Source: a virus
Reading direction: 5' to 3' (one strand)
IMG/VR virus record: IMGVR_UViG_3300028283_000171
Location: 1-38,568 of that record
Length of the DNA stretch: 38,568 nucleotides
A model generated the notes under the pieces. It ran no database searches. It was not told where the DNA came from and worked only from the letters and a program-made list of their open reading frames with translations. Positions 2,201 through 25,400 of the stretch are shown here, in pieces (position 1 is the first letter of the stretch; the number at the start of each line of letters is the position of its first letter). The position numbers and the translations under genes are program-made.

Positions 2201-2205
2201 ACAAT

Positions 2206-2215: not shown

Positions 2216-2230
2216 AAAATAAGAACAAAA

Positions 2231-2262
2231 AAAGACCCCCAATCACATTGTCGGGGGTCTTT
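2231..2262 (-). terminator. Rho-independent terminator of the capsid gene
   Basis: A perfect 10-bp stem (AAAGACCCCC at 2231-2240, GGGGGTCTTT at 2253-2262) with a 12-base loop is followed on the minus strand by a T-run. It ends transcription about 40 bases after the capsid stop codon and before the endonuclease ATG, so the endonuclease would need its own promoter. Confidence 0.93.
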
Positions 2263-2303
2263 AGAGTCACTATGATAATTAGATTATCACTAGTTAGATT
2301 AGA

Positions 2304-4055
2304 TTAGATAAGTACACCGTTTGTGTCGGTAACTTTAATAGCCATAAATTGCTTCTCGGGAAAGAATCCGATATCAGCTACTGCATATCTTGATCTTATT
2401 AACATGCGTGGTGCCCATGTAGCTTCTGAAATTAAGCTGATAGACTGAGCCATCAAATAAGGGATAAAGAGAAGACCTGGTTGGTCAACTGAGTTCTTTC
2501 TTCCTAAATAGATGTAGTTATCATCCCATCTCATGTAAGGATCTACATAGATTGCGATTTGTCCAACATTACCCATTGGGTAGAGTTGTCCGTTGGTGTT
2601 CAACTTACCAGCGTTAACTGGGTTGATTGTATAACCAGCGATATCTTGGATAACGGAAGCTAAGTTACCGTTTGTTACCAAATATTGAGCTGGTCCTATT
2701 CTACCATCTGTTGCGATGAAGTTAGAGGCATTGTTCAATTTAGCGATAAGCTTTCTTTGAACTGAGTGAGTTGTTTCACCCATACCTGTACCAAGGTGTG
2801 TTAAGTAATCATCAACGTTTAAGTCGAATTTGGATGTTACACCATCAACGGCCTTAGGAGCTGTGTAAGAAACTCTGTTCTTAAGAGCGAGGTTTCTAAT
2901 TTTACCAACGATTTCCTTAGAAATAACTTGGGTAAGTTCGTTAATAAGAACTCCTTCAAGTTTTTGAACGATATCCATACCAGTTGCGGCCTTGATATCT
3001 TCAATTTGGGTTCTCTTCAATGTTGAGGAGATTTCAATGTCACCAACTTGTACTGACTTGGTAAATACGTCAGGACCGATTACACCTGGGTAGGTTTTTT
3101 CATCTTGGTATCTGGTCATTGGACCTTCCCAACCATTTTCCATATTTGATTGCCAGCCTGCGCTGAAACCTGGAATGTGATCTTCGAGTAAGGATACTAA
3201 TTCAATTGAGAATGTAGCACCTGATGCTGTGATACCAGTTGTGGTTAAACCAGTTAAAGTAGCAATACCTGATGCTAAATAATCAGTAATTGCTCCAGTT
3301 TGTGGGAATGTATTGAGAGCTGCGTCCCAAATATTTCCTGTTCCTGATGCGTCTTGTGGAACTAATGATCCAACTGAGAAGCCAGCTTGTCTGTAAATTC
3401 TGAACATTGGGTGTCCATCAATTCTGGAGAATCCTAAGAATTCCATCCAGTTTGTGTAAGTTACAGGAGGTGTAGAGAAATAAGTTACTGCTCCACCTGC
3501 ACCAATATGTACCCAACATCTCTTGGTTAAACCACCAACTCTTTCTTGAATGCTCAATAAATTGAGTTGTAATTGGATAGCTTGTTTTAAAAGTAAATCT
3601 GTAGCTGTGCTAGTTGTTTTTACTTTGAAAACTAATGGTCTTTGTCTTGCTTCAGCGTCCTCACGGATACCATCACCATAAGCATTGTCATACTTAAAGT
3701 CAACAAAGAGTAATTCGATTCTTGGAGAAGCAGTTGGTTTAACAGCTACTAAGTCCAAACCGATAGTTTGAGCGGCAATCTTCATTGCTACTGGGAGTAA
3801 GTTTTGAGCTACGTCACCTGAACCAATTGTTCCATCAGCTTGCCAAGTTGCACCTGGAATTGTGGAGATTACTGGAGCAAGAACTCTACCCATACCATTT
3901 TGATTTAATGTGGCATAACCAACATTTTCATTCATCTGATGCATTTCTGCATACTCGGACATCCATGCTCTTTTTTCATCATCAACTACTCTGAGAGCGT
4001 CTAAGATTGGTGCCCATTTTTTCATTGCTTTCGCACTGTCAACTATAAAATTCAT
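2304..4055 (-). CDS. 23: Major capsid protein, T4 gp23-like
   Basis: This 583-aa protein forms the hexameric capsid lattice. Several blocks match T4 gp23 as I remember it. GDIEISSTLKRTQIEDIKAA with the following GMD and EL..VIS.EI corresponds to the gp23 E-loop/helix region. The C-terminal block with WAPRMLIRSRYAVA corresponds to the strand near the gp23 C-terminus. T4 gp23 is cut by gp21 after about residue 65; the best matching place here is after MNE (residue 43), before N-V-G-Y-A-T, so the first 43 residues may be a removable delta-domain. It is a single-gene unit with its own promoter motif and a strong terminator. GC at its third positions looks higher than in neighbouring genes, as expected for a highly expressed protein. 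Confidence 0.93.
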   Translation of the reverse strand: MNFIVDSAKAMKKWAPILDALRVVDDEKRAWMSEYAEMHQMNENVGYATLNQNGMGRVLAPVISTIPGATWQADGTIGSGDVAQNLLPVAMKIAAQTIGLDLVAVKPTASPRIELLFVDFKYDNAYGDGIREDAEARQRPLVFKVKTTSTATDLLLKQAIQLQLNLLSIQERVGGLTKRCWVHIGAGGAVTYFSTPPVTYTNWMEFLGFSRIDGHPMFRIYRQAGFSVGSLVPQDASGTGNIWDAALNTFPQTGAITDYLASGIATLTGLTTTGITASGATFSIELVSLLEDHIPGFSAGWQSNMENGWEGPMTRYQDEKTYPGVIGPDVFTKSVQVGDIEISSTLKRTQIEDIKAATGMDIVQKLEGVLINELTQVISKEIVGKIRNLALKNRVSYTAPKAVDGVTSKFDLNVDDYLTHLGTGMGETTHSVQRKLIAKLNNASNFIATDGRIGPAQYLVTNGNLASVIQDIAGYTINPVNAGKLNTNGQLYPMGNVGQIAIYVDPYMRWDDNYIYLGRKNSVDQPGLLFIPYLMAQSISLISEATWAPRMLIRSRYAVADIGFFPEKQFMAIKVTDTNGVLI

Positions 4056-4075
4056 TTTTTTAAGTTTTTTTTTAT

Positions 4076-4085
4076 TATATATTTG
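4076..4085 (-). promoter_or_regulatory. Putative late promoter CAAATATATA
   Basis: Minus-strand CAAATATATA lies 20 bases before the capsid ATG. The leader between them is almost only A, with no Shine-Dalgarno sequence, as is common in Bacteroidota. Confidence 0.6.
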
Positions 4086-4132
4086 ATTTAAAAAGTCATT
4101 TTTTCCAAAACGCTTGATCCATCAAACAATAA

Positions 4133-6556
4133 TTACCTTTGTAATCTTTTTAAATATGCTTCTATCTGATTATCACTAAGTTTGGTGTTATCAAATTTGT
4201 TATTACTTTCTTTTAACAAAGTCACCTTACCCATGTTTTTCTTTGCATATTCATGGAGATTTCTACTATTCCAGAAACTTTCCATTTTTTCCTCAGTCAA
4301 GTTTGTATAGAATTGTGCGCTACTTAAAATACTACCTTGTACTTCTGGTTTTAAGCTCTCCCAAATAGGTCTAAGATCGGCAGGGAGATTGTCGATCAAT
4401 GTTTCATTAAAGCTTCTTTCGGCTGTGGTTAATGCCTTAGCCATAATTGTTAACACTTCATTCTCGTTTGTATAATATTTGCTTTCGTTCATTGCAACTA
4501 CTACTTTTTCTTTATCTTCTTGTGAAAGGTTGTAATAAGCAGCCTTTTTTCTTTCAGATAAAAATTCTAAGAAATGAGGATTGTTGTCTTTAGAGGCCTC
4601 ACGTTTTTTGGACTCATTTATTTGCTTTAAGATCAATTTCTTTAATGTGTTTTCTGAATCATAAATTCTGTCACCAATGATTGATAACCTAGATTCTTGG
4701 ATTTCTTGAACTTCGCCAGTATCAGATAATTTAACAACAGCGATTCCATTATCAGCATTCATAGCTAAAATTTCACCTGTTTTATCATCATCTATTTTCA
4801 CAACTTGACCTGGAGTTAATTCAGATTTACTTTCCTCATCTTGGATTTCTTGTGCATTTACTCCTTCTACGTCAATATCCTCATCCTCTTCACCTTCAAG
4901 ACCTTGAGCCTGACCCTGAACTTGACCTTGGGCTTGTGCCTGTGGTTGTGCTCCTGGTTGTGCTTGACCTTGTGCTTGTGCTGGTTGAGCTTGAGTCATA
5001 TCATCCATAGTTTCGTCTTCATCGTAATATTTCGCAACTGAATCAGTTTTAAAATTACCCATTTTTTGTTCTGGTGAATCGATACCTTCTTTTATCATGG
5101 TTCCTTTTGAATTTAGTTTTTCAGCGATATACTTATTGTATTCGATGTTTTTATCTATTGCTTCAGCTAAATAATTACCGTAAGCGATGTTGTCTGTTAA
5201 ATTTTCAGCGATGTATTCTGAATACTTAATACTGTTATCAAGTTGTTCACCTACATATTCTGTGTATTTAATACTGTTATCAACGTGTTCGGCGATATAT
5301 TCAGCATATTTGATATTGTTATCAACATGTTCTGCAATGTATTCAGCGTACTTAATGTTGTTATCAACGTGTTCTGCGATGTATTCTGCGTAAGCGATAT
5401 TCTTTTCAAGATTCTCAGCTACATATTGTGAATAATCAATAGATTTATCAAGATTTTCAGCAATGTATTCTGAGTATTTGATAGTATTATCAACATTTTC
5501 AGCAATGTATTCTGAGAAATCAATTGATTTGTCTAATGTTTCAGCGATGTAATTTGCGTAATCGATAGATTTATCTACGGCTTCTGCAACGTATTCTGTG
5601 TAGTTAATTGCTTTTTCGAGCTCACCGGCTAAATAGTCGTTGTGTTCGATAATTTTCTCAGTCTTGTCTTTAGTTCTTTCCAATCTGAGTTCTAACTTTT
5701 CGTTGGTTTTTTTAATCTTTTTGTTTTCTTGGACTACTACCTGCATCGTTTCTGCTAAGTAATCAAGATAGGAGGCTATTTTCTGGAAGCCTTCTTGGAA
5801 GGAATCATACTTCTCATATAAATCATTCAACTTGGCTGGATCAAAGTCGCCCTTTGTAACGGCTTCATTGATTTCACTTTTTGCTTTTGTGATTTGGTCT
5901 GTTAAATAATTCGAGTACTTTTCCATCTGTTCTTTTGTTACAAATTCATTTTTATCCATATTGAACAAATCGTTTATTTTTGACTCGTCGGATATATCAT
6001 ATATCCTAAAGTTAGCACTCTCATTGAATCCCAACGATTCATTGATTGTGCGGAGTTCCATTTTAGCAGAACTAAATCCGGGATCAGCCACTGCATCATA
6101 GGTAAAAAGTTTTTTAATAGTTACTTCGCCATTAGACTCTGTTATACCTGCGGCGCGTGATGAAACAAAAATAGGGCATCCATCATCTATCAGCGCTTGG
6201 GCTTCTTTACCCCAGTGAGTATTTAGTAATCTAATTTCACCATCTACTCTATTCTTTTCTTTTACAAAAAAAGCACTTTCAACTGTATGAGATACCCTGC
6301 CTAAACTAGTATCAAAAACATCTGGATGATCAAATTCCCCATATACCACACCCAGTGTTTTCTTTCTCTCTAATAATTCTTCTAAATGGGGCAAAAATCT
6401 ATCAGCTTGATATATCCTGTCATTTCTATTTTTCACATTAAACTCTGTGAAAATACCACCAAGGATATACTGACGCTTCCCGGACGGAGCGACAGCTTCA
6501 TTTATTTTTTTTAAACCATTAATAGAATTTTCAACAATAAGAACGTTTTTTATCAT
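4133..6556 (-). CDS. 21: Fused prohead protease (gp21-like) and scaffold protein
   Basis: This 807-aa protein joins two jobs that T4 splits between gp21 and gp22. Residues 28-170 are the protease: NRNDRIY at 43-49, GEFDHP with the probable catalytic His77, FVSSR with Ser132/133, and YDAVADPGF (153-161) with the Asp. Residues 200-305 look coiled-coil. Residues 305-482 form about twelve 14-residue repeats. A Gln/Ala/Pro-rich linker (about 515-560) follows, then a small basic/acidic domain starting LTPGQVVKI and a helical tail. LKKINE-A near residue 20 fits the gp21 self-cleavage rule. The scaffold would line the prohead interior and be digested on maturation. A late-promoter motif lies 24 bases upstream; no clear terminator follows. 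Confidence 0.88.
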   Translation of the reverse strand: MIKNVLIVENSINGLKKINEAVAPSGKRQYILGGIFTEFNVKNRNDRIYQADRFLPHLEELLERKKTLGVVYGEFDHPDVFDTSLGRVSHTVESAFFVKEKNRVDGEIRLLNTHWGKEAQALIDDGCPIFVSSRAAGITESNGEVTIKKLFTYDAVADPGFSSAKMELRTINESLGFNESANFRIYDISDESKINDLFNMDKNEFVTKEQMEKYSNYLTDQITKAKSEINEAVTKGDFDPAKLNDLYEKYDSFQEGFQKIASYLDYLAETMQVVVQENKKIKKTNEKLELRLERTKDKTEKIIEHNDYLAGELEKAINYTEYVAEAVDKSIDYANYIAETLDKSIDFSEYIAENVDNTIKYSEYIAENLDKSIDYSQYVAENLEKNIAYAEYIAEHVDNNIKYAEYIAEHVDNNIKYAEYIAEHVDNSIKYTEYVGEQLDNSIKYSEYIAENLTDNIAYGNYLAEAIDKNIEYNKYIAEKLNSKGTMIKEGIDSPEQKMGNFKTDSVAKYYDEDETMDDMTQAQPAQAQGQAQPGAQPQAQAQGQVQGQAQGLEGEEDEDIDVEGVNAQEIQDEESKSELTPGQVVKIDDDKTGEILAMNADNGIAVVKLSDTGEVQEIQESRLSIIGDRIYDSENTLKKLILKQINESKKREASKDNNPHFLEFLSERKKAAYYNLSQEDKEKVVVAMNESKYYTNENEVLTIMAKALTTAERSFNETLIDNLPADLRPIWESLKPEVQGSILSSAQFYTNLTEEKMESFWNSRNLHEYAKKNMGKVTLLKESNNKFDNTKLSDNQIEAYLKRLQR
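5111..5644 (-). repeat. About twelve tandem 42-bp repeats encoding Y-x-E-Y-I-A-E units
   Basis: The scaffold part of the fused protein has units of exactly 14 residues with consensus YxEYIAExxDxxIx, from HNDYLAGELEKAIN (residue 305) to YNKYIAEKL (ending near 481). Two adjacent units, YAEYIAEHVDNNIK, are identical in protein. The periodicity is kept at the protein level with scattered DNA differences, so the array is old or under selection. Each unit contains [IV]-A-E, which fits the T4 gp21 cleavage rule. Confidence 0.95.
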
Positions 6557-6580
6557 TATCGTTTTAACTTATTTTAGAGG

Positions 6581-6590
6581 TATATATTAG
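6581..6590 (-). promoter_or_regulatory. Putative late promoter CTAATATATA
   Basis: Minus-strand CTAATATATA lies 24 bases before the ATG of the protease-scaffold gene, downstream of the portal terminator. Confidence 0.6.
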
Positions 6591-6641
6591 TTAAAAAAAG
6601 CCTATTTTTTCCATTTCAAGGTTGTTACGATAATAGCAATA

Positions 6642-6669
6642 AAAAACCCCACTTAATAGTGAGGTTTTT
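6642..6669 (-). terminator. Rho-independent terminator of the portal gene
   Basis: A 12-bp stem with one C-A mismatch (arms 6642-6653 and 6658-6669, loop TAAT) is followed on the minus strand by Ts. It begins just after the portal stop codon at 6674. Confidence 0.85.
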
Positions 6670-6673
6670 ATAT

Positions 6674-8497
6674 TTAAAATGTAGGTGCTTGACCACCACC
6701 GCCTTGTGCTGGTGGGGCTTGTCCACCGCCCTGTGGTGGTGCTTGACCGCCTTGTGCACCGCCTTGTGCTCCTCCTTGAGCGCCGCCTTGTGCACCTCCG
6801 AATTGTGCTCCGCCGCCTGCTTGTGCTCCACCACCAAATTGAGCGCCGCCACCCATTTCAGCTCCACCTCCGAAGCCACCGCCTCCACCGAAGCCACCGC
6901 CTCCGCCACCAAATTCACCGCCACCAGCTTCACCTTCTGCTGCACCAGCTCCGCCCATTCTTTGACGTTCTAAAGCTTTATATTTATTGTTTTCTTCAAT
7001 ATCAGCGTCAGTAAATTTCATAATATGACGAACAATCCATTCAATACTTAAATAAGGTTTACCTTCAGCGTCTTGCAAAGATGAACTCAAAGTACTAGCA
7101 ATAGTTGCTCTTTCATTCATATTTTTTAAATGACGCCATTCTTCAAACATCGTATCAGAAATAAATTCCAATTTAAGAGCGTTATTAAAATCAATATCGT
7201 CTTTCAATTCTGGGAAATCCAAAATCATTTGAATCTTCAAAGGCTTAACTAAAATTTCTTTGAAAATTGTTCTAATTCTACAAATGAAATTCTTAAATTT
7301 AACTTCATCTCTTGTAATAGCTGCACTTGAATCATAAGCATATGAACCACCGCCATTATCTTCATCAAATCTTTGGAATGGTAATTTACTTGCTCTTTTT
7401 AAGATTTTATAAAACCATTGAAGAACAATATCTTCATTTAAATTTACTTGTGTTGGTTGTAAGATTTCAATATTTGGTGTTCCTGCAGTTCCATCTGGAA
7501 ACCAGAAGTCCTTGCTAAAAGGAATATTAGTTTGTCCATTAATAGATACAGTTCCCATTCTTTCATCCCATTGAACATCATCATGATATTCACTCATTAG
7601 TTCATAAATTTGTTGCTCAGCTTGTTGACGAGTTAACCCCCCTACTGGGATAACAAACTTTTTATAAATTGATGCTTGGTTAATATTATAAAGTAATCTT
7701 GCCTGCTCAATCATTTTTAACTGGTTGAAAGGTCTAATTAAATTTTCTACGTAAGAAGTTTCTCCGTATTCATTATTGTTAGAATAAGAAATATAAATAA
7801 TCTGCGAATCTAATAATATTCTTCTAAGAGCTGGATTATCAGGATGTTGAATCCATATCATTGTATTTGTATTTGGATCTGTAGCAACAATAAGAGTAAT
7901 AGGATCGATTGGTGCTAAGTCAATAATAGTTTTTTGTTTATCATCGTAGACTATTTCATATGAAATATAACCGTCTATAAGAAGATTTTTTAAATAATTC
8001 CAAGCAATTTGACCTTCGTTAAAATTAAAAGTATTTATAAGTTTGGAGAAATTTTCTTGATATTTTTGTCTTATAGTTTGTTCATAATTATCAGGTAAAT
8101 CTTTTACAAAACAGAATCTATTATTTTCGTCGTAAATTATACATTCATCCGCGATTTGCGTAATGAAATCTTTTATTTCATCTTTAATAGAATATTGTCT
8201 GAGAATTTTTCTTTTATCTAAATATGTTCTATCAAGATAAGCGATTGATTTTTTATCTAAGAATCTAGCGATAGTTTTCTTTGTAAATAAATCATACATA
8301 TTTGAACTATTAGGTTGGTAAAGAACATCTGTTGTTTCTTCATGTACACCAATAGAATAAGCATTTCTAATACGCATATCGTTATATTCTAATCCACCAA
8401 ACATAGTGGATAATCCTCTTAATATTCTGTTAAATAAACCAAAATTTGTTGTATTTGTTTGATTTTGATTTCCTCTATATCTATCATAGCTTGCCAT
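6674..8497 (-). CDS. 20: Portal vertex protein, T4 gp20-like
   Basis: This 607-aa protein forms the dodecameric ring for DNA entry and exit and starts prohead assembly. Its order of elements follows gp20: an N-terminal wing region with ADECIIYD; IDPITL near 197-202; LKMIEQARLLY (260-270); IYKKFVIPVGGLTRQQAEQQ (277-296) with the following LMSEYH; and DFWFPDGTAG (330-339). A helical stem follows with PFQRFDED (373-380). The last 80 residues (about 528-607) are a low-complexity Gly/Gln/Ala/Pro tail absent from T4 gp20. A late-promoter motif lies 22 bases upstream and a terminator follows. A shuffled partial copy of its middle part lies at 32837-33418. Confidence 0.92.
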   Translation of the reverse strand: MASYDRYRGNQNQTNTTNFGLFNRILRGLSTMFGGLEYNDMRIRNAYSIGVHEETTDVLYQPNSSNMYDLFTKKTIARFLDKKSIAYLDRTYLDKRKILRQYSIKDEIKDFITQIADECIIYDENNRFCFVKDLPDNYEQTIRQKYQENFSKLINTFNFNEGQIAWNYLKNLLIDGYISYEIVYDDKQKTIIDLAPIDPITLIVATDPNTNTMIWIQHPDNPALRRILLDSQIIYISYSNNNEYGETSYVENLIRPFNQLKMIEQARLLYNINQASIYKKFVIPVGGLTRQQAEQQIYELMSEYHDDVQWDERMGTVSINGQTNIPFSKDFWFPDGTAGTPNIEILQPTQVNLNEDIVLQWFYKILKRASKLPFQRFDEDNGGGSYAYDSSAAITRDEVKFKNFICRIRTIFKEILVKPLKIQMILDFPELKDDIDFNNALKLEFISDTMFEEWRHLKNMNERATIASTLSSSLQDAEGKPYLSIEWIVRHIMKFTDADIEENNKYKALERQRMGGAGAAEGEAGGGEFGGGGGGFGGGGGFGGGAEMGGGAQFGGGAQAGGGAQFGGAQGGAQGGAQGGAQGGQAPPQGGGQAPPAQGGGGQAPTF

Positions 8498-9910: not shown

Positions 9911-10795
9911 TCAATCTATATAGGAATCATAATCTATGACATGTTTAAACATTGTTGTTTCTATAATCTGTGCATCTTTACTTCTTTCAGTTTTTATTCT
10001 GAAAACGACTTTTTCCATTTTATTTTTATAATTTCTAATTTTTTTATTCAATTTCTTTATAACATCGTCTATAACAGTAATAGATTGTTCAAGATTATTT
10101 GGTTTTTTAAAATTAAAATTTTCACAAAAATTTTCAGTCAATTTTATAAAATCTTCGTCTGTATATTTTTTAATAAATCTTTTATAAAAAACATCTATTT
10201 TAAAATAATTTAAATAGAATAAACAATCTTTATAATTTTTAGATTTTAATATATCGATATCTATATTTTCGCTATTTTTTAAATCTGAATATATTTCAGA
10301 TACATGTGAGTTGGTTTCGTGTTTTAATGTTAAATAAATTAAATATGTAAAATCTTTCCATATATCGTTATTAATAGCGAATTTTTTATGTTCATTTAAT
10401 TTTTCTTGTAAATACCAAGATTTATTTAACTTAACATTATTTTTCAAACGTTTATAAAATTCTAAAGCGTGATTCAATTCGTGATTCACATTAGATTCTA
10501 ATATATTATCTATATTGGAAAATTCTAAATATAAAATAACATCATCTAAAAAATTATTATCAATCAATTTATCACTTAATTTTATATTAGCATAATCTTT
10601 ATTTTCAATATATTTTATCTTTATTATAAAATTTCTTAGTTTCAAATCATTACTAGATACTAGGTCCATAGTAATTTCGGATTTTCCAAAGTTATTTTTA
10701 ATTTCAGAAATTATTTGAGAAGTATATTTTATAACGGTGTCGTTAACACCTAATCTTTCCAAAATTAAGTTATCAAATAGAATCGATCTTTCCAT
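9911..10795 (-). CDS. Putative zinc metallopeptidase (HExxH)
   Basis: The 294-aa protein contains HELNH at 105-109, the HExxH zinc signature of gluzincin/metzincin-like peptidases, flanked by N and AL as in helical active sites. KHETNSHVSE near 158-167 offers possible third ligands. The rest is very rich in Lys, Asn and Ile and poor in recognisable motifs. It has no signal peptide, so it would act in the host cytoplasm or be packaged. It lies between the late sigma factor and gp4 in one minus-strand series with short gaps. The substrate is unknown; a head-maturation role is possible only by position. Confidence 0.6.
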   Translation of the reverse strand: MERSILFDNLILERLGVNDTVIKYTSQIISEIKNNFGKSEITMDLVSSNDLKLRNFIIKIKYIENKDYANIKLSDKLIDNNFLDDVILYLEFSNIDNILESNVNHELNHALEFYKRLKNNVKLNKSWYLQEKLNEHKKFAINNDIWKDFTYLIYLTLKHETNSHVSEIYSDLKNSENIDIDILKSKNYKDCLFYLNYFKIDVFYKRFIKKYTDEDFIKLTENFCENFNFKKPNNLEQSITVIDDVIKKLNKKIRNYKNKMEKVVFRIKTERSKDAQIIETTMFKHVIDYDSYID

Positions 10796-11438: not shown

Positions 11439-12728
11439 TTACTTCAATAAGGATTTCTTAAATTGAATTTTTTCGTCTTTTGTTTTATTAAATTCTTTGT
11501 ATAGATTGTGTCTGTGAACTAATAAATTATCAAAAGTTAATTTAAGAGATTTGTCTGATTCCAATAAAGCTTGTTCGTTCTTAAGTTCGTCAATTGCTTC
11601 GTTGATGTCTTTGATTTTAAGTTCAATTGATTTTTCTTTATCTTCTAAAGTCTTCAATTGTTTTAATTCCTTTGAAAGTTTGTTTTCGAAGAAATGTGTA
11701 AGATCGTAATCTAAATCTTTCTTTGTGTCGTTGATAAGTTCGTTAACTGATTCATAAGCGTAGAATGAACTGCCTGTACGAATATCTTTGTTATATAAAT
11801 ACATCTTATCTTTATAATTGAAAGCGTATGCTTCTAAATAAGGATTAAGAATATTTGTTACCTTCAAAGCTATATCTAATTCAACGAGGTTATTTAAGTT
11901 TTCTTTCAATGTGTTTAATAACATAAAATAGTCTCTCTTTAAATAAGGAATGATAGGCGAATTGAAAATGTTTTCCAAAGTTGTTTCTGGATCTAATTTT
12001 TCTTCGTTGATAAACATCGATTTGTCGTTCTTTGTTGATAAAGCCACAATAACGTTTTCGTCAATTTTAAAAGAAATTTTATCATTTTCGATTGTTGAAA
12101 GTTTCATACATTGCTCAAGGACTCTGATTTCTTTAATTTTATCTTCGTCTTCGATGTAGTCTTCTGCTAAAATTTGTTTTACTTCTTTATCGTCAATCAT
12201 AAACCATCTATCGCTTACAAATGCCATATAACCATTATCTACTTTTTCAACTATGGTGTAAACTTTTTCAGCTTTACCAGAGTTTGACATGTTTTGTCTT
12301 TCTAATGGTGATTTTGTTAAACCGAATACAAAGCTCTTAATTTGTGGTACCCAATCATACATACGAAGCTCATTAAGGATTGCTTCCATTCTTGCGTCAT
12401 CATCTGATTTATTGATAATTTCAAGAATAGTGTTCAAAGGTTGTCTGTATAACATGCCTTGATTTTCTCTTTCTACTCTTTTATACAAATCTTTCAATTC
12501 ATAAATCAAGGGGTAAGATTTCATTTCGCTATCTAATCCTTCTAAGAACATTTTTACATCTGTATCATAAGTGTATTTTAAAAGTTTTTCGTTAACAGTT
12601 TTAACAAGTTCTTTCTCAGAATATTGATCATAATTGATTATGAAACCTTCTACAAGACTTGAAATATCAGTCTGATCGAAAGTTAATCTGTTCTTGAAGT
12701 TAAATAATTCTAATTTAAAGTTTTTCAT
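11439..12728 (-). CDS. Hypothetical 429-aa protein with C-terminal coiled coil
   Basis: I do not recognise a family. Residues 1-330 are mixed helix and strand, including YTIVEKVDNGYMAFVSDRWF (about 158-177), which looks like a beta hairpin. Residues 345-425 are a long Lys/Glu/Leu helix, very likely a coiled coil. There is no signal peptide or membrane segment. It follows the 294-aa gene at 12749 with a 20-base gap and ends at a strong terminator, so the two are one operon. Its codons keep G/C at third positions more often than the neighbouring peptidase gene, which suggests good expression. A structural or scaffold-like role is a guess. Confidence 0.8.
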   Translation of the reverse strand: MKNFKLELFNFKNRLTFDQTDISSLVEGFIINYDQYSEKELVKTVNEKLLKYTYDTDVKMFLEGLDSEMKSYPLIYELKDLYKRVERENQGMLYRQPLNTILEIINKSDDDARMEAILNELRMYDWVPQIKSFVFGLTKSPLERQNMSNSGKAEKVYTIVEKVDNGYMAFVSDRWFMIDDKEVKQILAEDYIEDEDKIKEIRVLEQCMKLSTIENDKISFKIDENVIVALSTKNDKSMFINEEKLDPETTLENIFNSPIIPYLKRDYFMLLNTLKENLNNLVELDIALKVTNILNPYLEAYAFNYKDKMYLYNKDIRTGSSFYAYESVNELINDTKKDLDYDLTHFFENKLSKELKQLKTLEDKEKSIELKIKDINEAIDELKNEQALLESDKSLKLTFDNLLVHRHNLYKEFNKTKDEKIQFKKSLLK

Positions 12729-14312: not shown

Positions 14313-15320
14313 TTATTTATCTAATTTTGTAGCCCCGCCTTCTGCACTATTGAGGTTATAACGTGGATGTCCTTTAACGTAATTTCCAGCGTTACTTCCT
14401 AATCTGCCTGTGCTTGGAGTGTAATAAGCAAGAGTGTCCATTGATGGGTAATAATCAAACATTATAGGATTTAATTGAATGGCTACAGAGGCGTAAACTC
14501 TTTTACCATTTTCTAAATAAGACGCGTCGTGCATTACTTGTTGAGCTTTGTACAACCAATCGTGTTCGATTGCGTAATCAACATATAATTTCTGATCAGC
14601 GTAATTTAAAACGTAAATTCTATCCATGTAAATTTTACCAGTTGGTTTGCGTAATCCCATCCAAACCAATGCTCTTCCTTTAATCTTTTTATCGTTTTTA
14701 TCACTCATTAATATTAATAACTTACATCTTTCTGGATTCTTACAATAAATATCTAAATATTTTTGTGCGTAATCGTGTTTCATGCAAGAACTATTTAAAT
14801 CACCTTGACTTTGATTCTCATAATGATCCGAAAGATAATAATATCTTATTTCTTCCCCTTCAACTAATTTAAATTTAGCAGAAGCTTTACCCATTTCAGC
14901 CTTGAAATCATTTACAAACTTTTCAATTTCAACTTGTTTGTAAGTGTCTGGGAATAATCTGTTTACTATCTTACCAACAGACATTTCTTGTCTTAATTTA
15001 GAGTTATAACAATCTCCACACGGAATCATCATATCTTGTAAATAACCAGGAACTTCAGTAGCTTTAGCTGCAGGCATAAAAGATATTTTATCTTCTTTGT
15101 CTTTTTTTGATCTATCACAATCTAAATAAGATAGTTCAAATTTATTATGACCTTTTACTGTTGGTTGTTTAGAAGCATCTAATTCTAAAATTTTTTTAGC
15201 TATAGGTGAATCTATAACACTTAATATCTTAGCAAGAACCTCAGAAATAAAAAACGAGATTTTCTTTTTTTCTTTATCGTCTGCTTCAAATAAAAATCCG
15301 TTATAGTTATACAATGCCAT
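14313..15320 (-). CDS. Tandem paralogue 4: putative internal head protein
   Basis: The 335-aa member of a four-gene tandem family has unknown activity. Shared landmarks are LSYLDCD then SFMPA (79-84), GEEIRYYY (155-162), SSCM (177-180), YLDIYCKNPERCKLLIL (188-204), KGRALVW (214-220), YMDRIY (231-236), DWLYK (254-258) and a C-terminus with TGRLGS (304-309). The invariant Cys, Asp and Arg positions could be an active site, but I cannot name the enzyme. Residues 5-13, NYNGFLFEA, resemble the T4 capsid-targeting sequence and offer a gp21-type cut after LFE. I infer packaging in the head. It is last in the operon, 16 bases after paralogue 3. Confidence 0.8.
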   Translation of the reverse strand: MALYNYNGFLFEADDKEKKKISFFISEVLAKILSVIDSPIAKKILELDASKQPTVKGHNKFELSYLDCDRSKKDKEDKISFMPAAKATEVPGYLQDMMIPCGDCYNSKLRQEMSVGKIVNRLFPDTYKQVEIEKFVNDFKAEMGKASAKFKLVEGEEIRYYYLSDHYENQSQGDLNSSCMKHDYAQKYLDIYCKNPERCKLLILMSDKNDKKIKGRALVWMGLRKPTGKIYMDRIYVLNYADQKLYVDYAIEHDWLYKAQQVMHDASYLENGKRVYASVAIQLNPIMFDYYPSMDTLAYYTPSTGRLGSNAGNYVKGHPRYNLNSAEGGATKLDK

Positions 15321-15336
15321 TTAATAATAGTTTATT

Positions 15337-16398
15337 TTATTTGTCTCTAGCGAGTCTTTTTGTACCACCATTAGCTTTATGTAATTGGTATCTTTCCATT
15401 GTTTCACCAGTAAATGGACTTTTAGTGGGTTTGCCTCTAATTGTTGATAATCTTCCAGTATCGGGGGTGTAAAAACACATTGTATCAATATAAGGATAAC
15501 GAGCAAATATACCGTGATTTTTTAATCTTGTTGTAATACCTTTATCACAAACTTGTCCGTCTTTTACAAAGGTGTAAACTTCTTTAGATTGATTTGGTTT
15601 GTACCACCAACCGTGCTCTTTAGCGTAATCTATAAAAATATTTACATCTGATTCATTTGTATAATAAATTCTATCCATCAATACTCCCTTTGTTGGGTTG
15701 CCTGGTATATCAACGACAAAGCAATCAAACCAAATTATGGCTCTTGCCACTAATTTCCCTTCTTTGTTCAACATTATTAACATGCCAACCTGTTCGGGAT
15801 TTTGGCAATAAATATCAAAAAATGATTGTTTTTCTGGTTGTTTAAGACAAGACTTCATAAGAGGAGTTCTAACATCGAGTACTCCTTCATCGGGTGCTTC
15901 TTCCATACCTGGATGAGGATTGTAATAAGATTTAACGTGATACCATTTACATATCTCTTCTCCTCTTACCATTTTTAATTCGTAATTGCCTTGATCCAAT
16001 TTACCTTTGATAAGATGTACAAAATTTTCAAGGTCTTTTGATCCAGCGTATTTAGGTAAAGTTCTGGTAACAAAGGCACCAATTCTCATAGATTGTCTGC
16101 CTTTTTCTCCCCATACTGGACTATTTGGTTTTGGATTAACTAAATCTTCTTCTGTTATACCAGCTAATCTACCAACCCTGTTAGCTGGGAGAACACTAAT
16201 AGTATCAATATCGTTAGTTAAATCAGCGTAAGAATTTTGAAATTTAATATCAGACTTAGGTAGATCTAAAAGTTCTTTTGATATTTTGGAGTCTATCGAA
16301 TTTAATAGTTCAGTAAGTTTAGGTGAAAAAAACATTGGAAGTTCTTTCACGTTAATATCACTTTCATATACATAACCATTAAAATTTTTAAGTCCCAC
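15337..16398 (-). CDS. Tandem paralogue 3: putative internal head protein
   Basis: The 353-aa member has the same order of motifs: LPANRVGRLAG, GEEICKWYHVKSYY, LMKSCLKQPE (Ser-Cys-Leu where the others have Ser-Cys-Met), FFDIYCQNPEQVGMLIML, ARAIIW, LMDRIYYTNESD, GWWYK and YTPDTGRLS. It is the most divergent of the four, replacing GRALVW by ARAIIW. The N-terminus MGLKNFNGYVYES fits the targeting pattern F-x-x-Y-V-x-E-S. C-terminal residues are basic (RLARDK), as in the other copies. It lies 17 bases after paralogue 2. Confidence 0.8.
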   Translation of the reverse strand: MGLKNFNGYVYESDINVKELPMFFSPKLTELLNSIDSKISKELLDLPKSDIKFQNSYADLTNDIDTISVLPANRVGRLAGITEEDLVNPKPNSPVWGEKGRQSMRIGAFVTRTLPKYAGSKDLENFVHLIKGKLDQGNYELKMVRGEEICKWYHVKSYYNPHPGMEEAPDEGVLDVRTPLMKSCLKQPEKQSFFDIYCQNPEQVGMLIMLNKEGKLVARAIIWFDCFVVDIPGNPTKGVLMDRIYYTNESDVNIFIDYAKEHGWWYKPNQSKEVYTFVKDGQVCDKGITTRLKNHGIFARYPYIDTMCFYTPDTGRLSTIRGKPTKSPFTGETMERYQLHKANGGTKRLARDK

Positions 16399-16415
16399 TA
16401 TAATTAAATATTATT

Positions 16416-17501
16416 TTAGTCTACTCTACCAGCTTGTCCACCACCGCCTTCAAGTTTTAGTCTTTTCATACCTTCAACTGGATTACCTGGATCAGAACCT
16501 AATCTACCAGTTCCTGGATTGTAATATTTTAAACTATCCATAAAAGGGTAAGTTTTATATTCAGCAGGTTTTAATTGAAGAGCCACAGACTTATTTACTC
16601 TCTGTCCGTTTTCTATATATGAAGCGTCGTAAGCCTGTTGATCATATTTATATAACCAACCTTTTTCCATTGCGTATTTCTTAAACAATTCTGCGTCAGA
16701 TTGTTTGAAAACATAGATTCTATCCATGAAAGTTTTATCTGTTGGTTTTCTAAGGTTTGACCACACTAGTGCTCTTCCAAGAAGTTTATTTTGAGCATTT
16801 GTTAAAATTAACATAGCACATTTTTCTGGATTTTTAACATAAATATCAAAATATGGTTGGCAATTTTTGCCTTCTTTAGAATGAGGATCGTATCTCATAC
16901 AAGAGTTGTTAAGACCAGCGTCTTTACCACCACCTGGATCTTTATAGTAATTTGATTCAGCGTACCAGAATCTAATATCTTCACCAGTAACTAATTTGAA
17001 TCTATCATAGATCATGGTTGCTGCGATTTCAGCTCTGTATGACTTAACAAAACTATCTATTGCTTTATCTGAGAAATTATCAAATAATCTATTAATGAAT
17101 TTACCAACACCAAGAGATTGTCTACCAGCACCTGTCCACATTTCACAATTTGGTGCTGGTTTTTGATCTGCTTCAGCTTGATCTTTGAATCCCATTTTAA
17201 ACCAAGCTCTTTGAGCTGGCATAAAAGATAGAGAGTCGTCCTTATCATTATCAACATCAATATAAGATATATCAAAGAGATTTTCTTCAGGCTCTTGATC
17301 AATATTTAGAATTTTACTAGCTATAGCTTTAGCTTGAAAATCTGCTGTTTTCATCATCTTTTGAAGAAATCCTTCTAGCTTGGGTGAAATAAATAACTTC
17401 AAGAGTTTCTTTTTACCTTTAACGAATTTAGGTTTTTCTGGATCAATCACTGGTTCGTCTGCTTCATTAACAAAATTTTTATAATGTGATAACGTGCTCA
17501 T
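16416..17501 (-). CDS. Tandem paralogue 2: putative internal head protein
   Basis: The 361-aa member shows SYIDVDNDKDDSLSFMPAQR, GEDIRFWYAESNYY, NNSCMRYDP, PYFDIYVKNPEKCAMLIL, LGRALVW, FMDRIYVFKQSD, GWLYK and YNPGTGRLGS. The N-terminus HYKNFVNEADEP is the closest of the four to the T4 targeting sequence (Y-x-x-F-[IV]-x-E-A) and fits a cut after VNE. A basic stretch KGKKKLLK follows. It is 17 bases downstream of paralogue 1. Confidence 0.82.
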   Translation of the reverse strand: MSTLSHYKNFVNEADEPVIDPEKPKFVKGKKKLLKLFISPKLEGFLQKMMKTADFQAKAIASKILNIDQEPEENLFDISYIDVDNDKDDSLSFMPAQRAWFKMGFKDQAEADQKPAPNCEMWTGAGRQSLGVGKFINRLFDNFSDKAIDSFVKSYRAEIAATMIYDRFKLVTGEDIRFWYAESNYYKDPGGGKDAGLNNSCMRYDPHSKEGKNCQPYFDIYVKNPEKCAMLILTNAQNKLLGRALVWSNLRKPTDKTFMDRIYVFKQSDAELFKKYAMEKGWLYKYDQQAYDASYIENGQRVNKSVALQLKPAEYKTYPFMDSLKYYNPGTGRLGSDPGNPVEGMKRLKLEGGGGQAGRVD

Positions 17502-17518
17502 ATTTTAATTTTTATTTT

Positions 17519-18499
17519 TTATCTATCTACTGGTGATTTAGCACCGTTTTGATTTTTTAAACTGTAACGAGGAAAAACTCTCGAAGGATTGTTCGGATCC
17601 CTACCAGGATTACCAGGTGTTGAAGCCGCTCTACCCGTCGCTGGTGTATAATAAGCCATAGTATCCACATAAGGATAATATGTATAATCAATTGGTTTCA
17701 AACGTGTTGCGACAGAAGTTGTTTTTCTTACTCCGTCCATCATAAATGAATCACCTTTTTTATATAACCATTTATGGTCTATAGCGTATTTATGAAAAGC
17801 TGCTTCTATTTGTGGTCCTTGACTATTAAGATAATATACCCTATCTAATAATGTGTATGGGTTTTTATCTTCTGCTGTATCACCACTTGGTTTTAATAAA
17901 TTATTCCAAACAAGTGCTCTGCCTATAATTTTATCAGGATTCTTTTCGCTAAAATAAATTAACAATCCACATTTTTCTGGATTGTTGCAATACATATCGA
18001 AAAATGGTTGTGCATTAGATCCTTGCATACAAGAATTAAAAGGTCCATCCCATCTTTCACCAAGATACCAATATCTAATTTCTTCACCGTGAACGACTTT
18101 AAATCTTTCTTGTTCTTTTTGTTTTACGTCAATTTCTGGACGATATCTGTTATAGAAACGATCTATGTCCATGTTTGTAAATTCACCTGGAAATAATTTG
18201 TTAATCATTTTGCCCCAAGTCATAGTTTGTCTCATTCTACTCTTCCAAGGATCGTCACCAGATTCCTCCACTTTTTTCATTCTATCTATTGGAAGATAAG
18301 ACACTACTTTACTATCTTTATCTACGTCTAAAAAATTAACATCAGACTCTACTTTACTTAAAATTCTCTTAGCTATAGGTTCAGAAAGTATTTTACTCAA
18401 AATCGTAATCAGATTGTCGGAATATAATACTTTCACAACATCAGTAGTTTCGTTTGATTCTTTCATATATACATTAAACTTTAATACGTAATTGTTCAT
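17519..18499 (-). CDS. Tandem paralogue 1: putative internal head protein
   Basis: This 326-aa first gene of the operon has FLDVDKDSKVVSYLPIDR, GEEIRYWYLGERW, FNSCMQGSN, FFDMYCNNPEKCGLLIYF, GRALVW, LLDRVYYLN, KWLYK and YTPATGRAAS. The N-terminus reads LKFNVYMKES, which keeps the pattern F-x-x-Y-M-x-E-S of a targeting sequence. A late-promoter motif lies 25 bases upstream. A TAnnTTTG box 5 bases before the ATG is probably chance because it would leave no leader. I chose this start because the alignment with the paralogues begins here. Confidence 0.8.
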   Translation of the reverse strand: MNNYVLKFNVYMKESNETTDVVKVLYSDNLITILSKILSEPIAKRILSKVESDVNFLDVDKDSKVVSYLPIDRMKKVEESGDDPWKSRMRQTMTWGKMINKLFPGEFTNMDIDRFYNRYRPEIDVKQKEQERFKVVHGEEIRYWYLGERWDGPFNSCMQGSNAQPFFDMYCNNPEKCGLLIYFSEKNPDKIIGRALVWNNLLKPSGDTAEDKNPYTLLDRVYYLNSQGPQIEAAFHKYAIDHKWLYKKGDSFMMDGVRKTTSVATRLKPIDYTYYPYVDTMAYYTPATGRAASTPGNPGRDPNNPSRVFPRYSLKNQNGAKSPVDR

Positions 18500-19670: not shown

Positions 19671-21764
19671 TTAATCTGCTGTAACTCCAAGAAGATCAAC
19701 TGATGGTAGAGTTCTTAAAGCTGTTGTTGTAAATGTAACTTCGTTACCGTACCCTGTTCCAGCACTATTAGTAGCATATGCTCTCACGTAATATAATGTA
19801 CTAGGTGTTAATCCGGTCATTAATGTGTTAAAATTATTTATTGTGAAAGCGTCAATAGTGTGTGAACCTGCTATAGTTGGATTTGGTGAAGTTGACCAAC
19901 AAGCACCTACGGTAGTTATTATAGCGTTACCAGCACTTGATATAACACCATATGTTACTGCACTTATATCAGCTATAGCTTCAATTGGTGATGTTGTAGT
20001 TAAAGTTGGTATTACCGCCGGACTTGTAATATCAGTATGGAAAGATTGAACTGTGGAACTATTATTTCTTCCGGATAAATTTTCAGCGTAAGCCCTAACC
20101 CAATATGTAGTATCAGGTGTTAAAGATGAAATGGTAACCGTAAATTGTCCTGTTCCAGGTGCTGGTAAAGGTACTACTCCAGGTGTAGGATTATCAGTTG
20201 GTCCTGGTAATGTATTTGTATCAGAATAATAAACACCACAAAGCGAAACATCACTACCGTTATTATTGCTTATAAAACAAGTAACATTTGTACTAACATC
20301 TAATTTATTAGGAAAATCTATTATAGATACAGAAGGAACACTACTGGATGATGTTTCTGTTGTAAACTGCATAAGATTACCGTAAGTTAAACCTGTTATG
20401 TTTCTGGCGTAAGCTCTGATATTATAATCAGTACCAACAGACAATCCGTTTAATAATATACTTATATTACCCATAGATCCACCGTCACTTACGCTCCAAT
20501 TACTTGAAGTGGTTCCAGTGAATGGGATATTAGGAGGAAATGCCCAACATACACCTCTGTCAAGTATAGTGGCTCCACCGTTGTTTGTCACTCTACCGTT
20601 ACCTATAACACTAGTAGACATTATAGTGGTAGCACTGTTTGTTATAACACTTGGTGCGACCACATTAGTTGCTAATATTTGTTGTAATAAAGGATTTTCC
20701 ACAGTGTTTGTAGATAAGTAACCATTTACAAATTGTCCATCTATCCACATTCCGTTATAGAAATGACCATCGTAGAATATGCCATTTATCCATAGTCCAT
20801 TATACCAATTACCATCGTACCATATACAAGCTGACGCGTTTGTAGTGCCAGTATCAGTATTAAATACTCCACCGTACCAATTACCAGTGTAAAATTTCCC
20901 GTTATGGAAATGTCCACCGTACCATTTACCGCTGTAGAAATTACCATTCATCCAATGCGTTTTATTGCAGTCTATACTTGGTATAGTATTACCACTAGCA
21001 TCTATATTTAAACCAGAATGGAATTCACCGTTGTAAAAATTACCGTTCCACCATGTTGTTCTAGATTTTTCTAAACTGGCTGTTCCAAATCTACTATTTA
21101 TACTAGAATTAATTCTATCGAATGTCCCGTAATACCAGTCGCCCTCTACAAAATCCCCACCGTACCATATTCCATCGTACCATTGATGATGATTGAAAGT
21201 TCCAGAATAAAATTTACCATTCAACCAATACGAATTAATCATACTACCGTAATAGAATATACCGTTATACCAAACTGAATTTATAAATATTCCATCGTGA
21301 TATTTACCGTCTTCCCAATAAGAACTAGAAAATGTTTTCCCTGTTAAATCACCGTAAGTCTTATTAGATATATCTCTTTCGTAACCAAATATACCATCGT
21401 AAAAATCTCCCTGTTTCCACAAACCACTTCTAAATTCAGAATATATTTCACTCTTATCAAGTATAACAAATCTATTAGATATAACCATAGCTTTATCAAT
21501 AAGATAGGAATACCATTTACCATTATCCCATATACCATCGTGCCATATACCAGAATACCATGTACCGTCGATCCACTCACCGCATACCCATTCACCCGAG
21601 TACCAAACTAATCCGTAATCATCTTCACCTATGATACAATCTTTAACACTGGCATTTAATACCCAATTATATTTGATTTTTAATCTTTCAATAGTTAAAC
21701 CACTGACTAATATAATATTATCAGCGTTTTCATTTATATTCACTATCTCAACTTTAAAAGCCAT
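19671..21764 (-). CDS. Tail-fibre protein: WxxG repeat stalk plus FN3-like domains
   Basis: The 697-aa protein has a short N-terminal strand region (1-50), probably for docking. Residues 54-350 carry about thirty MORN-like units of the type [WF]Y-x-G-x-[WF], which should form a flat beta sheet or solenoid. Two complete and one further FN3-like domain of Bacteroidota type follow (about 365-680; RGVCW, LTPDTTYWVRAYAENLSG, LTPSTLYYVRAYATNSAG). The chain stops at LPSVDLLGVTAD, the first strand of another FN3 domain that continues in the next gene. It presumably binds host surface glycans. It is translated 14 bases after the PKD/LRR protein gene. Confidence 0.82.
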   Translation of the reverse strand: MAFKVEIVNINENADNIILVSGLTIERLKIKYNWVLNASVKDCIIGEDDYGLVWYSGEWVCGEWIDGTWYSGIWHDGIWDNGKWYSYLIDKAMVISNRFVILDKSEIYSEFRSGLWKQGDFYDGIFGYERDISNKTYGDLTGKTFSSSYWEDGKYHDGIFINSVWYNGIFYYGSMINSYWLNGKFYSGTFNHHQWYDGIWYGGDFVEGDWYYGTFDRINSSINSRFGTASLEKSRTTWWNGNFYNGEFHSGLNIDASGNTIPSIDCNKTHWMNGNFYSGKWYGGHFHNGKFYTGNWYGGVFNTDTGTTNASACIWYDGNWYNGLWINGIFYDGHFYNGMWIDGQFVNGYLSTNTVENPLLQQILATNVVAPSVITNSATTIMSTSVIGNGRVTNNGGATILDRGVCWAFPPNIPFTGTTSSNWSVSDGGSMGNISILLNGLSVGTDYNIRAYARNITGLTYGNLMQFTTETSSSSVPSVSIIDFPNKLDVSTNVTCFISNNNGSDVSLCGVYYSDTNTLPGPTDNPTPGVVPLPAPGTGQFTVTISSLTPDTTYWVRAYAENLSGRNNSSTVQSFHTDITSPAVIPTLTTTSPIEAIADISAVTYGVISSAGNAIITTVGACWSTSPNPTIAGSHTIDAFTINNFNTLMTGLTPSTLYYVRAYATNSAGTGYGNEVTFTTTALRTLPSVDLLGVTAD
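20715..21605 (-). repeat. MORN-like aromatic/Gly repeat array
   Basis: This stretch encodes dozens of short units such as WYNGIF, FYSGTF and WYDGIW. The units are irregular in spacing and interrupted by loops at about residues 84-113 and 217-235. The DNA repeats are imperfect, so the array is maintained at the protein level. Confidence 0.85.
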
Positions 21765-21778
21765 TTTTATATCTTATT

Positions 21779-22456
21779 TTATGTGTTGTAGCTTAATGTC
21801 CACAACTTATTTATACTTAAACTATTTCTTGAAGCTAATGAATAAACAGATGGTTTACCATTATTTGTCCCAGTTGTAATCATGTTGCCACCAAAGGTTA
21901 AAAAAGTATCAGCTTCTATATATAAATCATCTATAACATCATTTGGGAAATAATTATCAGTCAATGTTATAGTGTTTAAATAAATTAAACCATCTAAACT
22001 AAATTTGGTTAATCTATTATTTGTTAAGTTTAAGTAAGATAAGGTTTTTATTTTACTGATTGAAGCGCTTGTTAATCCACCTGTTCCAGATGCTGGTAAT
22101 ATCATTAAACTAGTTATTTTTTCTATCCAACCTGTAGCTGTTATAGTATATGTAATTGCGCTAGCGTAAGTATGGGTGATAGACGTACCTCCTGTTGTTA
22201 TTAACCAGCTTTCAGTAACACCGTCACCGTAATCAAAAGATAAATTCATAAGATAACTAGATGTTATAGTAGATGAAAAAATCTTATTACTATAATTAGC
22301 GTCAAATGTTAAAACAAAAGAATCGCTTGGCACACCATTATCCATATCGAATGTAGATACCATGTTATCGTTTAATATGGGGACAGGTATTTTCGTGTGT
22401 TTATCTATTCCTATATCTAGTAATTCTATTGGTTTTAATTGTAGTTTTGGGTCCAT
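21779..22456 (-). CDS. Fibre/adhesin protein with PKD-like domain and LRR-like segment
   Basis: The 225-aa protein has a PKD-like fold at about 45-110, seen in FDYGDG (74-79) and ITHTYASAITYTI (93-105). It is followed by an LRR-like segment at about 125-180 (LSYLNLTNNRLTKFSLDGL, then LNTITLTDNYF). This combination is common in surface proteins of Bacteroidota and in their phages' fibres. There is no signal peptide, as expected for a virion protein. It lies between the two largest fibre genes with gaps of about 14 bases on each side and is surely co-translated with them. Confidence 0.78.
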   Translation of the reverse strand: MDPKLQLKPIELLDIGIDKHTKIPVPILNDNMVSTFDMDNGVPSDSFVLTFDANYSNKIFSSTITSSYLMNLSFDYGDGVTESWLITTGGTSITHTYASAITYTITATGWIEKITSLMILPASGTGGLTSASISKIKTLSYLNLTNNRLTKFSLDGLIYLNTITLTDNYFPNDVIDDLYIEADTFLTFGGNMITTGTNNGKPSVYSLASRNSLSINKLWTLSYNT

Positions 22457-22470
22457 TTTATATTTTTATT

Positions 22471-25400
22471 TTAAAATTCATAAACTATGTATATTGGTCC
22501 AGACATCGCTGGTACTTGGAAAGCATATACGTTATATAATATTCCTGTCCAATTATTAACTAACCCACTTGACGCCATTTCTACATTTAAATAAGTTGTT
22601 GGAATCTTATTTACACCGTTAGCTTTAATAGATGATATTATACCGTAACTTGATGGGTGAGCAAAATAAACTAAATTATCAGTAGCTCCAATTGTGTAAG
22701 CGTAAGTTTTAATAGACGAATAAGTTTCGACCTTTTTAAGCATTGGTTCGTTATTTGGTGGCATTGTGTCTAAATAAAAATTACCAGCCGCACAATATAT
22801 TCTCATATTTCTATCTGTTAATATAGGAGGAACACTTGGTACTCTGTTACACGTTAAGAAAGGATATACCGCACTTACTTGTACAGTTAAATCTTTTATT
22901 TCAGATGGTGTACCACAACTTTCTATGGCAACAAAGTTAGGAGTCTCTTCAATTACAGGTGTATATGTATATGGTGATGAAGCGTTATTCGCTGACGTTA
23001 TACCTAATCCCCAAGTTAATCCAGTTGTAGACGAAGCAGTGAATGTAGTATTACCACTCCATAGTTGATTTGTTGGCACATTACCTTGTAGAATAGCGAC
23101 AGTAGTAACTATATCAGTTGTAGATGTACCAATCTGGTAAACAAGAGGATCTACACTGGATACAGATGATATAAATAATTTAACGTTAGCGTCATTAAGA
23201 TATAATGCGCTAAAGTATATGTTATTACTCCAACCTGTTCCAACAGAGTTAATAGCATATGATTGTCCTGTATAAGCTGTCCCCGGCGTTAATCCAGTCA
23301 ATATTAATGAAAAAGCACCAACACCACCTGTTGCGTAAGGCCATAATCCAATAGTGTTACCAGTTGTACCTCTTGCTGTTACAGTAGCATACCCATCACT
23401 TATAACTTCACTATTTATAGTAGCTCCTGTTATTGAAATATCTGAAACACTATTTATAACAACAGCAGGAAGAACAGCAGATAATGTTGAAAAATTAACA
23501 GAAGGCGTGTATGTTGTTCCTTCACTATTTGTGGCGTGAGCAAAAACGTAATAATTTCCACCCAAAGTTAATCCTGTTAATGTAGAAGTCCAAGAACCTG
23601 TACCAGTTCCACCGTTCCAATTTAATAAAGAAGGAATAGTAGTGCCTGAGTACTGAAGACCCCTTGATGTTACAGACGCACCACCGTCACTGACTATCTG
23701 ACTTGTTACGTCAGCATTAACAGTTCCAATATTACTTATTACAGGACTACTTACACTAAATGATGGTTTTGAAAAACCAGAAGCAGTTGTAAACTGTATA
23801 TCTGCGCTGTAATTTGTTCCTATTGAATTTGTAGCGTAAGCTCTTACGTAATAAGTAGTTAGGTTTGTTAGGCCAGTAATTGTTGAAGTCCATGAAGCTG
23901 AACCAGTTCCTTCGTACCAAATTGGAGAAGTTGGAGTAGGTGAAGTAGAATAAAGTAAACCTTTAGATGTTATTATAGCGTTTCCGTCGCTTGTAATAAC
24001 TCCTCCAAATATTCCAGTACTAGAACCTGATGATATAAATGATAAGGTTACAGTTGGTAAAGTCTGAATTGGTAATGTTGTAAAACCAGATACAGATGAA
24101 TAACCAGTTAAGCCGTATAAATTTGTGGCAGCAGCCATTAAATAATATGATGTGTTTAGAGTTAACCCAGTTAAATTCGTGTGCCAATTGGTTGTTCCAG
24201 TTGCTGACCAGAATGGATCACTTATAGTTGGTGGATTTAATGTAGATATATATAAACCTTCCGATACTATTGGCGAATTACCATTAGATAATAATAAATT
24301 AGACACGTTGGCGTGATATGTTCCAAAAGATAAAACACTACTTATTTGAACAGTGGGTGTAACAGGTAAAGGTAGAGTGGCTACAGATTTCACAGGTCCG
24401 TAAGCTGTGGTAGAACCACTATATAATGTGTTTATGGCGTAAGCTCTAAAATAATAAGTTGTATTAAATGTTAATCCAGTTAAATAAACAATATATGGTC
24501 CAAGACTATAAGGATAAGGACCAAATGGTTGAACAGTGTTTCCAGTTGTTGGATCGTTATAAGGATCAGTTGACCAAACGACTCCTAACTCGTCTACTCC
24601 GTGTTCAGGATCAGTTAAAGAACCGTCGTTGTCTATCAAATTACACAACACATCTATACTATTATATGTAGTAGGGCTATTCCATCCAATTGTATCCAGA
24701 ACTGGAGCGTAAGGATATAAGGTTGATATACTATTACCAATACCATATGTTACACCACAAATATTTTCAGCGAAAGCGTTATAAGAATACATTTGATTAT
24801 GTGTTAATCCAGTTAAATCAAGAGTGTAAGAACCAATAGTGCCTGGTTCTGGTGTAAATACAACAACACTATCGGCAATGGTTGGAGCAGATATTCCAAT
24901 TTTATAAACTATACCTCTTGTTAATATTGTACAATATCCTCTATCTATAACAGAAGCGTCGACTGTTATTTTATGTGATGTGGCAGAAGCACTATTTGTA
25001 GTTACTGTAGCGCCTGTATAAACAGCAGTAGATGTGAAAAAAGAATAAGGTTCACCGTAAGAAGTTCCTTGAACGTTAGTAGCGTAAGCTTTATAATAAT
25101 ACCACGATTCAGGAGTCAAACCTGTAATATTACTTGAAAAAGGGCCAACTCCCGATGTATATGTCGAAGCTTGCACACAAATATTTTGTACAAAAGATGA
25201 AGTTGACCAACATATGCCTCTACCAGTTATATTTGTGCCTCCGTCACTAGTTATTTCTCCTGGTAAAATAGCAGATGTACTGGTGTGTGTTTCATTTAAT
25301 TTAGTTACAACAACTGGTTTTCTTGGTACTCCACCGTTAGAATAATTTTCTGGATCGTAAAGTTTTAAAATAAATTTGTGTTGTTCGTCCTGCATCAAGA

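Follow-up and report, generated by a model that had tools for sequence, protein, structure and literature searches.

The closest described system is that of phage T4, in which the internal head proteins IPI, IPII, IPIII and Alt carry a short N-terminal leader in which two aromatic residues, spaced by three positions, precede an aliphatic residue, xE and a small residue. In the T4 capsid-targeting sequence (CTS; MKTYQEFIAEA), targeting depends on residues 4 and 7, and processing on residues 8 and 10 (PMC9026906). In the giant phages phiKZ and SPN3US, a gp21-related protease cleaves many head proteins after a Glu residue, and these proteins are ejected (PMC5694885, PMC9026906). GNATs are among the known tools of phage takeover (PMC7824862), examples being Rac of phiKMV-like phages and the GNAT domains that injected polyvalent proteins carry. 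The largest complete phages, of 735, 642, 636 and 634 kb, were assigned to the Mahaphage clade with predicted Bacteroidetes hosts (PMC7162821); the words inject and virion do not occur in the main text of that paper. The literature search found no papers on T4-like leaders in these phages and nothing usable on the virion proteomics of PTm1.

The window, a stretch of 38,568 nucleotides from the virus record IMGVR_UViG_3300028283_000171, is a close relative of part of the 735,411-bp genome LR756501 (W01), with paralogue 1 being 88% identical and the protease-scaffold protein 99.4% identical. Four tandem genes were located at 14313-18499, all on the minus strand and spaced by 16-17 bases. Paralogues 2-4 were 36-46% identical to paralogue 1 with alignment over the whole length, and the motifs GE[ED]I, SC[ML], D[IM]Yx(x)NP, RA[LI][VI]W and (M/L)DR[IV]Y were kept in all four, which confirms the observation behind the original prediction. 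Table 1 shows the features of the array and of the head genes.

Table 1. Positions of the paralogues, their leaders and the head genes in the window
Feature	Position	Strand	Remarks
Major capsid protein, gp23 type	2304..4055	-	PF07068 E=2e-25
Prohead protease-scaffold fusion, 807 aa	4133..6556	-	PHROG_207 head maturation protease E=4e-26; PF03420 below cut-off
Tandem 14-residue scaffold repeats, YSEYIAENLDKNIA type	5117..5602	-	Core motif same as leaders
gp21-type (S77) protease domain, residues 30-143	6128..6469	-	N-terminal part of 807-aa ORF; S77 Pfam match below curated cut-off
Portal protein, gp20 type	6674..8497	-	PF07230 E=1e-69
Paralogue 1	14313..15320	-	335 aa; leader and GNAT-like core
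Leader motif, paralogue 1	15282..15305	-	Residues 6-13, YNGFLFE/A; predicted cleavage after E12
Paralogue 2	15337..16398	-	353 aa; GTG start
Leader motif, paralogue 2	16360..16383	-	Residues 6-13, FNGYVYE/S; Glu is E12
Paralogue 3	16416..17501	-	361 aa
Leader motif, paralogue 3	17460..17483	-	Residues 7-14, YKNFVNE/A; Glu is E13
Paralogue 4	17519..18499	-	326 aa
Leader motif, paralogue 4	18455..18478	-	Residues 8-15, FNVYMKE/S; Glu is E14
Leader, example sequence			MALYNYNGFLFEA

Head genes and scaffold repeats

The capsid, portal and protease genes lie in the same window and on the same strand as the paralogues, and the region 2304-8497 supplies a gp21-type protease, a gp23-type capsid protein and a scaffold core, which are the set of a T4-type CTS system. 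The middle of the 807-aa ORF contained 10-13 repeats of 14 residues in the window and in four relatives, and similar runs were present in each IMG/VR contig from which a protease-scaffold ORF was recovered (6/6); the repeats of LR756500 are a degenerate version. The leader motif occurred inside the scaffold repeats of 12 of 12 protease-scaffold ORFs, in degenerate form in one. The repeats include YSEYIAEA and YTEYVAEA, while the T4 CTS contains YQEFIAEA. Among 3,709 proteins scanned, the scaffold ORFs of W01, W02 and W03 had the most internal leader-like sites (>=5 bits), and that of W04 had fewer than these three. The T4 capsid protein likewise has the motif, as FGSFLTE, ending at residue 65, its cleavage site. 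The fusion of the protease to a scaffold of leader-motif repeats is new here and sets these genomes apart from T4. The leader resembles one unit of this scaffold, and we infer that it binds through imitation of such a unit.

The capsid, protease-scaffold and 429-aa genes (2304-6556, 11439-12728) showed a synonymous divergence from LR756501 of 0.12-0.16, and neighbouring genes mostly 0.4-0.7, up to 2.3, suggesting recent recombination of head genes. Synteny with LR756501 was broken at 125-1396 (a glycosyltransferase with no LR756501 match), at 1448-2242 (an HNH-type endonuclease beside the capsid gene, with only a distant match, 43% identical) and at 9911-10795 (an ORF of unknown function with no LR756501 match). 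LR756501 also contained, at 21458-26533, a 1691-aa ORF with seven copies of a leader/scaffold-type motif.

Leaders of the paralogues and of other proteins

The N-terminal motif [YF]xx[FY][LVM]xE[AS] was present in all four paralogues, ending at residue 13-15, and the leader-profile scores of paralogues 1-4 were 15.1, 17.5, 18.5 and 15.0 bits. The leader length of 12-14 residues fits the T4-type CTS range of about 10-19 with its targeting and processing positions. Residues 4, 7, 8 and 10 of the T4 CTS correspond to the conserved aromatic, aromatic, aliphatic and Glu positions of these leaders, which are the positions known to matter in T4. The mature N-termini, first placed at residues 12-14, were corrected to a predicted position of 13-15 (A13, S13, A14 and S15). 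In the LR756501 copy of paralogue 4, the motif is longer by one residue (YMKKES), and the cleavage site is less certain there.

The census covered ORFs of at least 100 aa, in which the strict motif [YF]xx[FYW][LIVM]xE[ASG] had to start within the first 20 residues, and the expectation was derived from its internal rate; the ORFs were longest non-overlapping frames taken without a gene finder, and some starts are approximate. Four giant genomes (635-735 kb) showed 30, 10, 13 and 9 strict motifs against 0.99, 0.81, 0.97 and 0.34 expected, the first being LR756501 (735 kb, the nearest genome), where 30 of 720 ORFs had the motif at the N-terminus. A position profile tested leave-one-genome-out at a threshold of at least 10 bits gave 51, 21, 28 and 26 N-termini against 1.7, 2.0, 1.4 and 1.1 expected (a total of 126 against about 6 in the four complete 635-735 kb relatives). 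When T4 was scanned with the profile trained on giant phages, IPII and IPIII were recovered at 15 bits and no other protein was. There were zero matches in 220 kb of phiKZ and zero in 200 kb of Lak-A1, while PTm1 had two weak matches against 0.46 expected. The single match in GAP32 was the ORF adjoining its protease (2205-3332), which starts MSKLDKFLNESS and is probably its scaffold, as if the scaffold itself has the motif. Leaders were predicted for a fifth giant genome, LR756500, because its protease-scaffold aligned to the repeats, and the count of 14 against 1.0 expected bore this out; these leaders have the form MKYIKEYEDFINEA, and the core family of the paralogues is absent from that genome.

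Fifty-six leader proteins of LR756501 were otherwise unrelated (9-28% identity), and YxxFINE was their main common consensus. The cargo includes 2H-phosphoesterases matching the anti-CBASS protein Acb1, a T4-type RNA ligase 1 and PPK2, as well as methyltransferases, DHH, a DeoC-type aldolase and nucleotidyltransferases. Enzymes that blunt cyclic-nucleotide or tRNA-cleaving defences would be a natural injection payload. A leader-bearing 2H-phosphoesterase matching Acb1 was found at 473773-474312 of genome W03, and another, at 448257-449573 of genome W04, was fused to an RNase_T exonuclease domain. One leader match, a glutamyl-tRNA synthetase, may be due to chance and was left out of the cargo.

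As in T4, the genome encodes a gp21-type protease and a gp23-type capsid protein, and the cargo is unrelated beyond the leader; T4 differs in having a handful of carriers, against about 20-50 proteins per genome here. The phiKZ and SPN3US system is alike in that a gp21-related protease of a giant phage cleaves many head proteins after a Glu residue, with the cleavage here being predicted, and differs in its mostly long propeptides, its S/A-x-E or A-x-E motif and the lack of leader matches in phiKZ. The genome-wide N-terminal enrichment, together with the matching protease, capsid and scaffold in the window, argues for an N-terminal leader of the T4 capsid-targeting and gp21-type cleavage kind, in line with the original prediction, and the proposal of that prediction that the paralogues are packaged head proteins is likewise well supported at the sequence level.

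The core family and the history of the array

The core is a new family which, among the sequences searched, was found only in phages. Pfam, PHROG and PDB sequence searches gave nothing usable for the family; of 80 members, 5 matched PHROG_23053 (unknown function; best E 3e-5). Bacterial and archaeal genomes yielded no relative when scanned with strict peptide patterns, all taken from the four proteins of the window, and the C-terminal extensions of long members had no Pfam domain above cut-off. Seven residues (C179, R216, W220, D233, Y236, P292 and D295) were invariant in 80 of 80 aligned members at a mean identity of 20%.

The AlphaFold2 models of paralogue 1 and of a relative with 26% identity to it had pLDDT values of 92.3 and 93.8. 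The VIA-align lists of both models were all GNATs, with best Z of 6.3 and 6.5 (moderate, under 8), and the Foldseek lists were mostly GNATs at E of about 4e-3, which is below the level where a fold is certain. Among these GNATs are the tRNA-acetylating toxins AtaT and TacT, as well as the toxin KacT for the second model. The predicted strand and helix order is that of GNATs, and a GNAT acetyltransferase-like fold is probable on these models. The core differs from GNATs in having no sequence match to any GNAT family, and in an additional N-terminal region (about 120 residues) and an invariant Cys. The canonical Q/RxxGxG/A CoA pyrophosphate loop between strand 4 and helix 3 was absent; the segment after strand 4 reads MDRIYTxNDSDEE, and columns 237-245 are of TxNDSDEE type with no conserved glycines. 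Since the usual CoA loop is missing, the core was not filed as a canonical GNAT.

A possible but somewhat doubtful reading, compatible with packaging, is that the central sheet of the core only resembles that of GNATs and that the protein is some new enzyme, cysteine-dependent or other. The invariant Cys179, the missing loop and the modest structural scores speak for it, whereas two models only 26% identical in sequence both returned GNAT lists and the matching strand order. An enzyme-like shared core, which the original prediction had described as possibly catalytic, is supported. That prediction would have been contradicted by a core belonging to a known non-packaged family; the only likeness found was the moderate one to the GNAT fold.

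Family profile matches numbered 18 in LR756501, 11 in LR756502, 14 in LR756504 and 11 in LR745206, some being two pieces of one gene, and homologues were scattered through the giant genomes beyond the head cluster. No core-family match was found in T4 or phiKZ. A leader of at least 8 bits was present in 70 of 165 core-family members. A second cluster in LR756501, at 434121-440763, holds four distant family members that are not orthologous to the array of the window. One match was found in Cellulophaga phage phi38:1, where gp037 has a homologous core (hmm score 236) and differs in being leaderless, single-copy and encoded outside the annotated structural genes, in a phage where S77 protease and gp23 capsid were not detected. 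No virion data were found for gp037, which is not named in a paper on this phage, where the gene numbering is apparently different. The leaderless gp037 implies that the core is not packaged by nature and that the leader is modular.

In a 37-row tree of the window, LR756501 and IMG/VR contigs L001-L007, each array position formed its own clade (supports of 99/95, 100/98, 100/99 and 100/100), and the array gene order was identical across the seven contigs. The dN/dS values of paralogues 1-4 against LR756501 were 0.18, 0.03, 0.05 and 0.18. Purifying selection acts on the array, whose four copies are ancestral and keep their order. Family copy number does vary elsewhere in the giant genomes; at this locus, the earlier view that tandem expansion reflects an arms race was rejected by the own-clade tree, the stable order and dN/dS of 0.03-0.18.

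These features also bear on whether the paralogues are leader-packaged but structural, as an inner-head layer or morphogenesis factors with a non-catalytic GNAT-like fold, and not injected effectors. This is unlikely, although the genes lie within a late structural run, the stable array under purifying selection (0.03-0.05 for copies 2 and 3) would suit such a role, and T4 IPIII itself affects head assembly (PMC9026906): the seven invariant residues are largely polar or of catalytic type despite 20% mean identity, and homologues occur outside the head cluster, one of them in a non-T4-type phage.

Probable packaging of the paralogues and a possible payload of the largest phages

It is quite probable that the four proteins are internal head cargo and that the phage is a giant relative of T4. 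The N-terminal leader would imitate one scaffold repeat, and through this likeness the paralogue is proposed to co-assemble with the prohead scaffold core. Cleavage after [LVM]xE by the scaffold-fused gp21-type protease would then remove the leader, leaving a mature protein of 35-40 kDa free inside the head, to be delivered together with the DNA. The divergent GNAT-like protein, with its invariant Cys/Arg/Trp/Asp/Tyr set, would most likely modify a host or phage target covalently early in infection; an effector function is plausible. Against this explanation stand the many family members without a leader, including the phi38:1 homologue, the moderate GNAT scores together with the missing CoA loop, and the strong conservation of copies 2 and 3, to which a structural role would also be suited.

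That the motif is instead another localisation or stability tag, for example for an infection-stage compartment or protein complex, is very improbable: metabolic enzymes such as PPK2 and the DeoC-type aldolase are not obvious virion freight and the link from tag to head in these phages is read from sequence, but the motif is nearly identical to the experimentally defined CTS of T4, is co-encoded with a gp21-type protease and repeated in the fused scaffold, and is absent or near background in giants with a related protease and a repeat-less scaffold (Lak-A1 and PTm1, with the sole GAP32 match beside the protease).

For packaging by the leader, we see an even chance of a general rule, in which the packaging address of the largest phages is a detached scaffold repeat, any protein starting with one YxxFINE unit is built into the scaffold core, freed by the scaffold-fused protease and injected, and the T4 CTS is explained in the same way. 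The largest phages are known from metagenomes only, and if the rule is true, a payload of roughly 20-50 proteins per genome would be readable from sequence, giving a rule for their injected proteome. Dozens of proteins would be delivered at infection, including likely counter-defence enzymes (the Acb1-matching 2H-phosphoesterases and the T4-type RNA ligase). The rule also offers a testable answer to how the T4 CTS recognises the scaffold core, namely by likeness to one scaffold unit. Of these results, the scaffold-mimicking address tag, carried by dozens of proteins in the largest phages, is the one worth pursuing.
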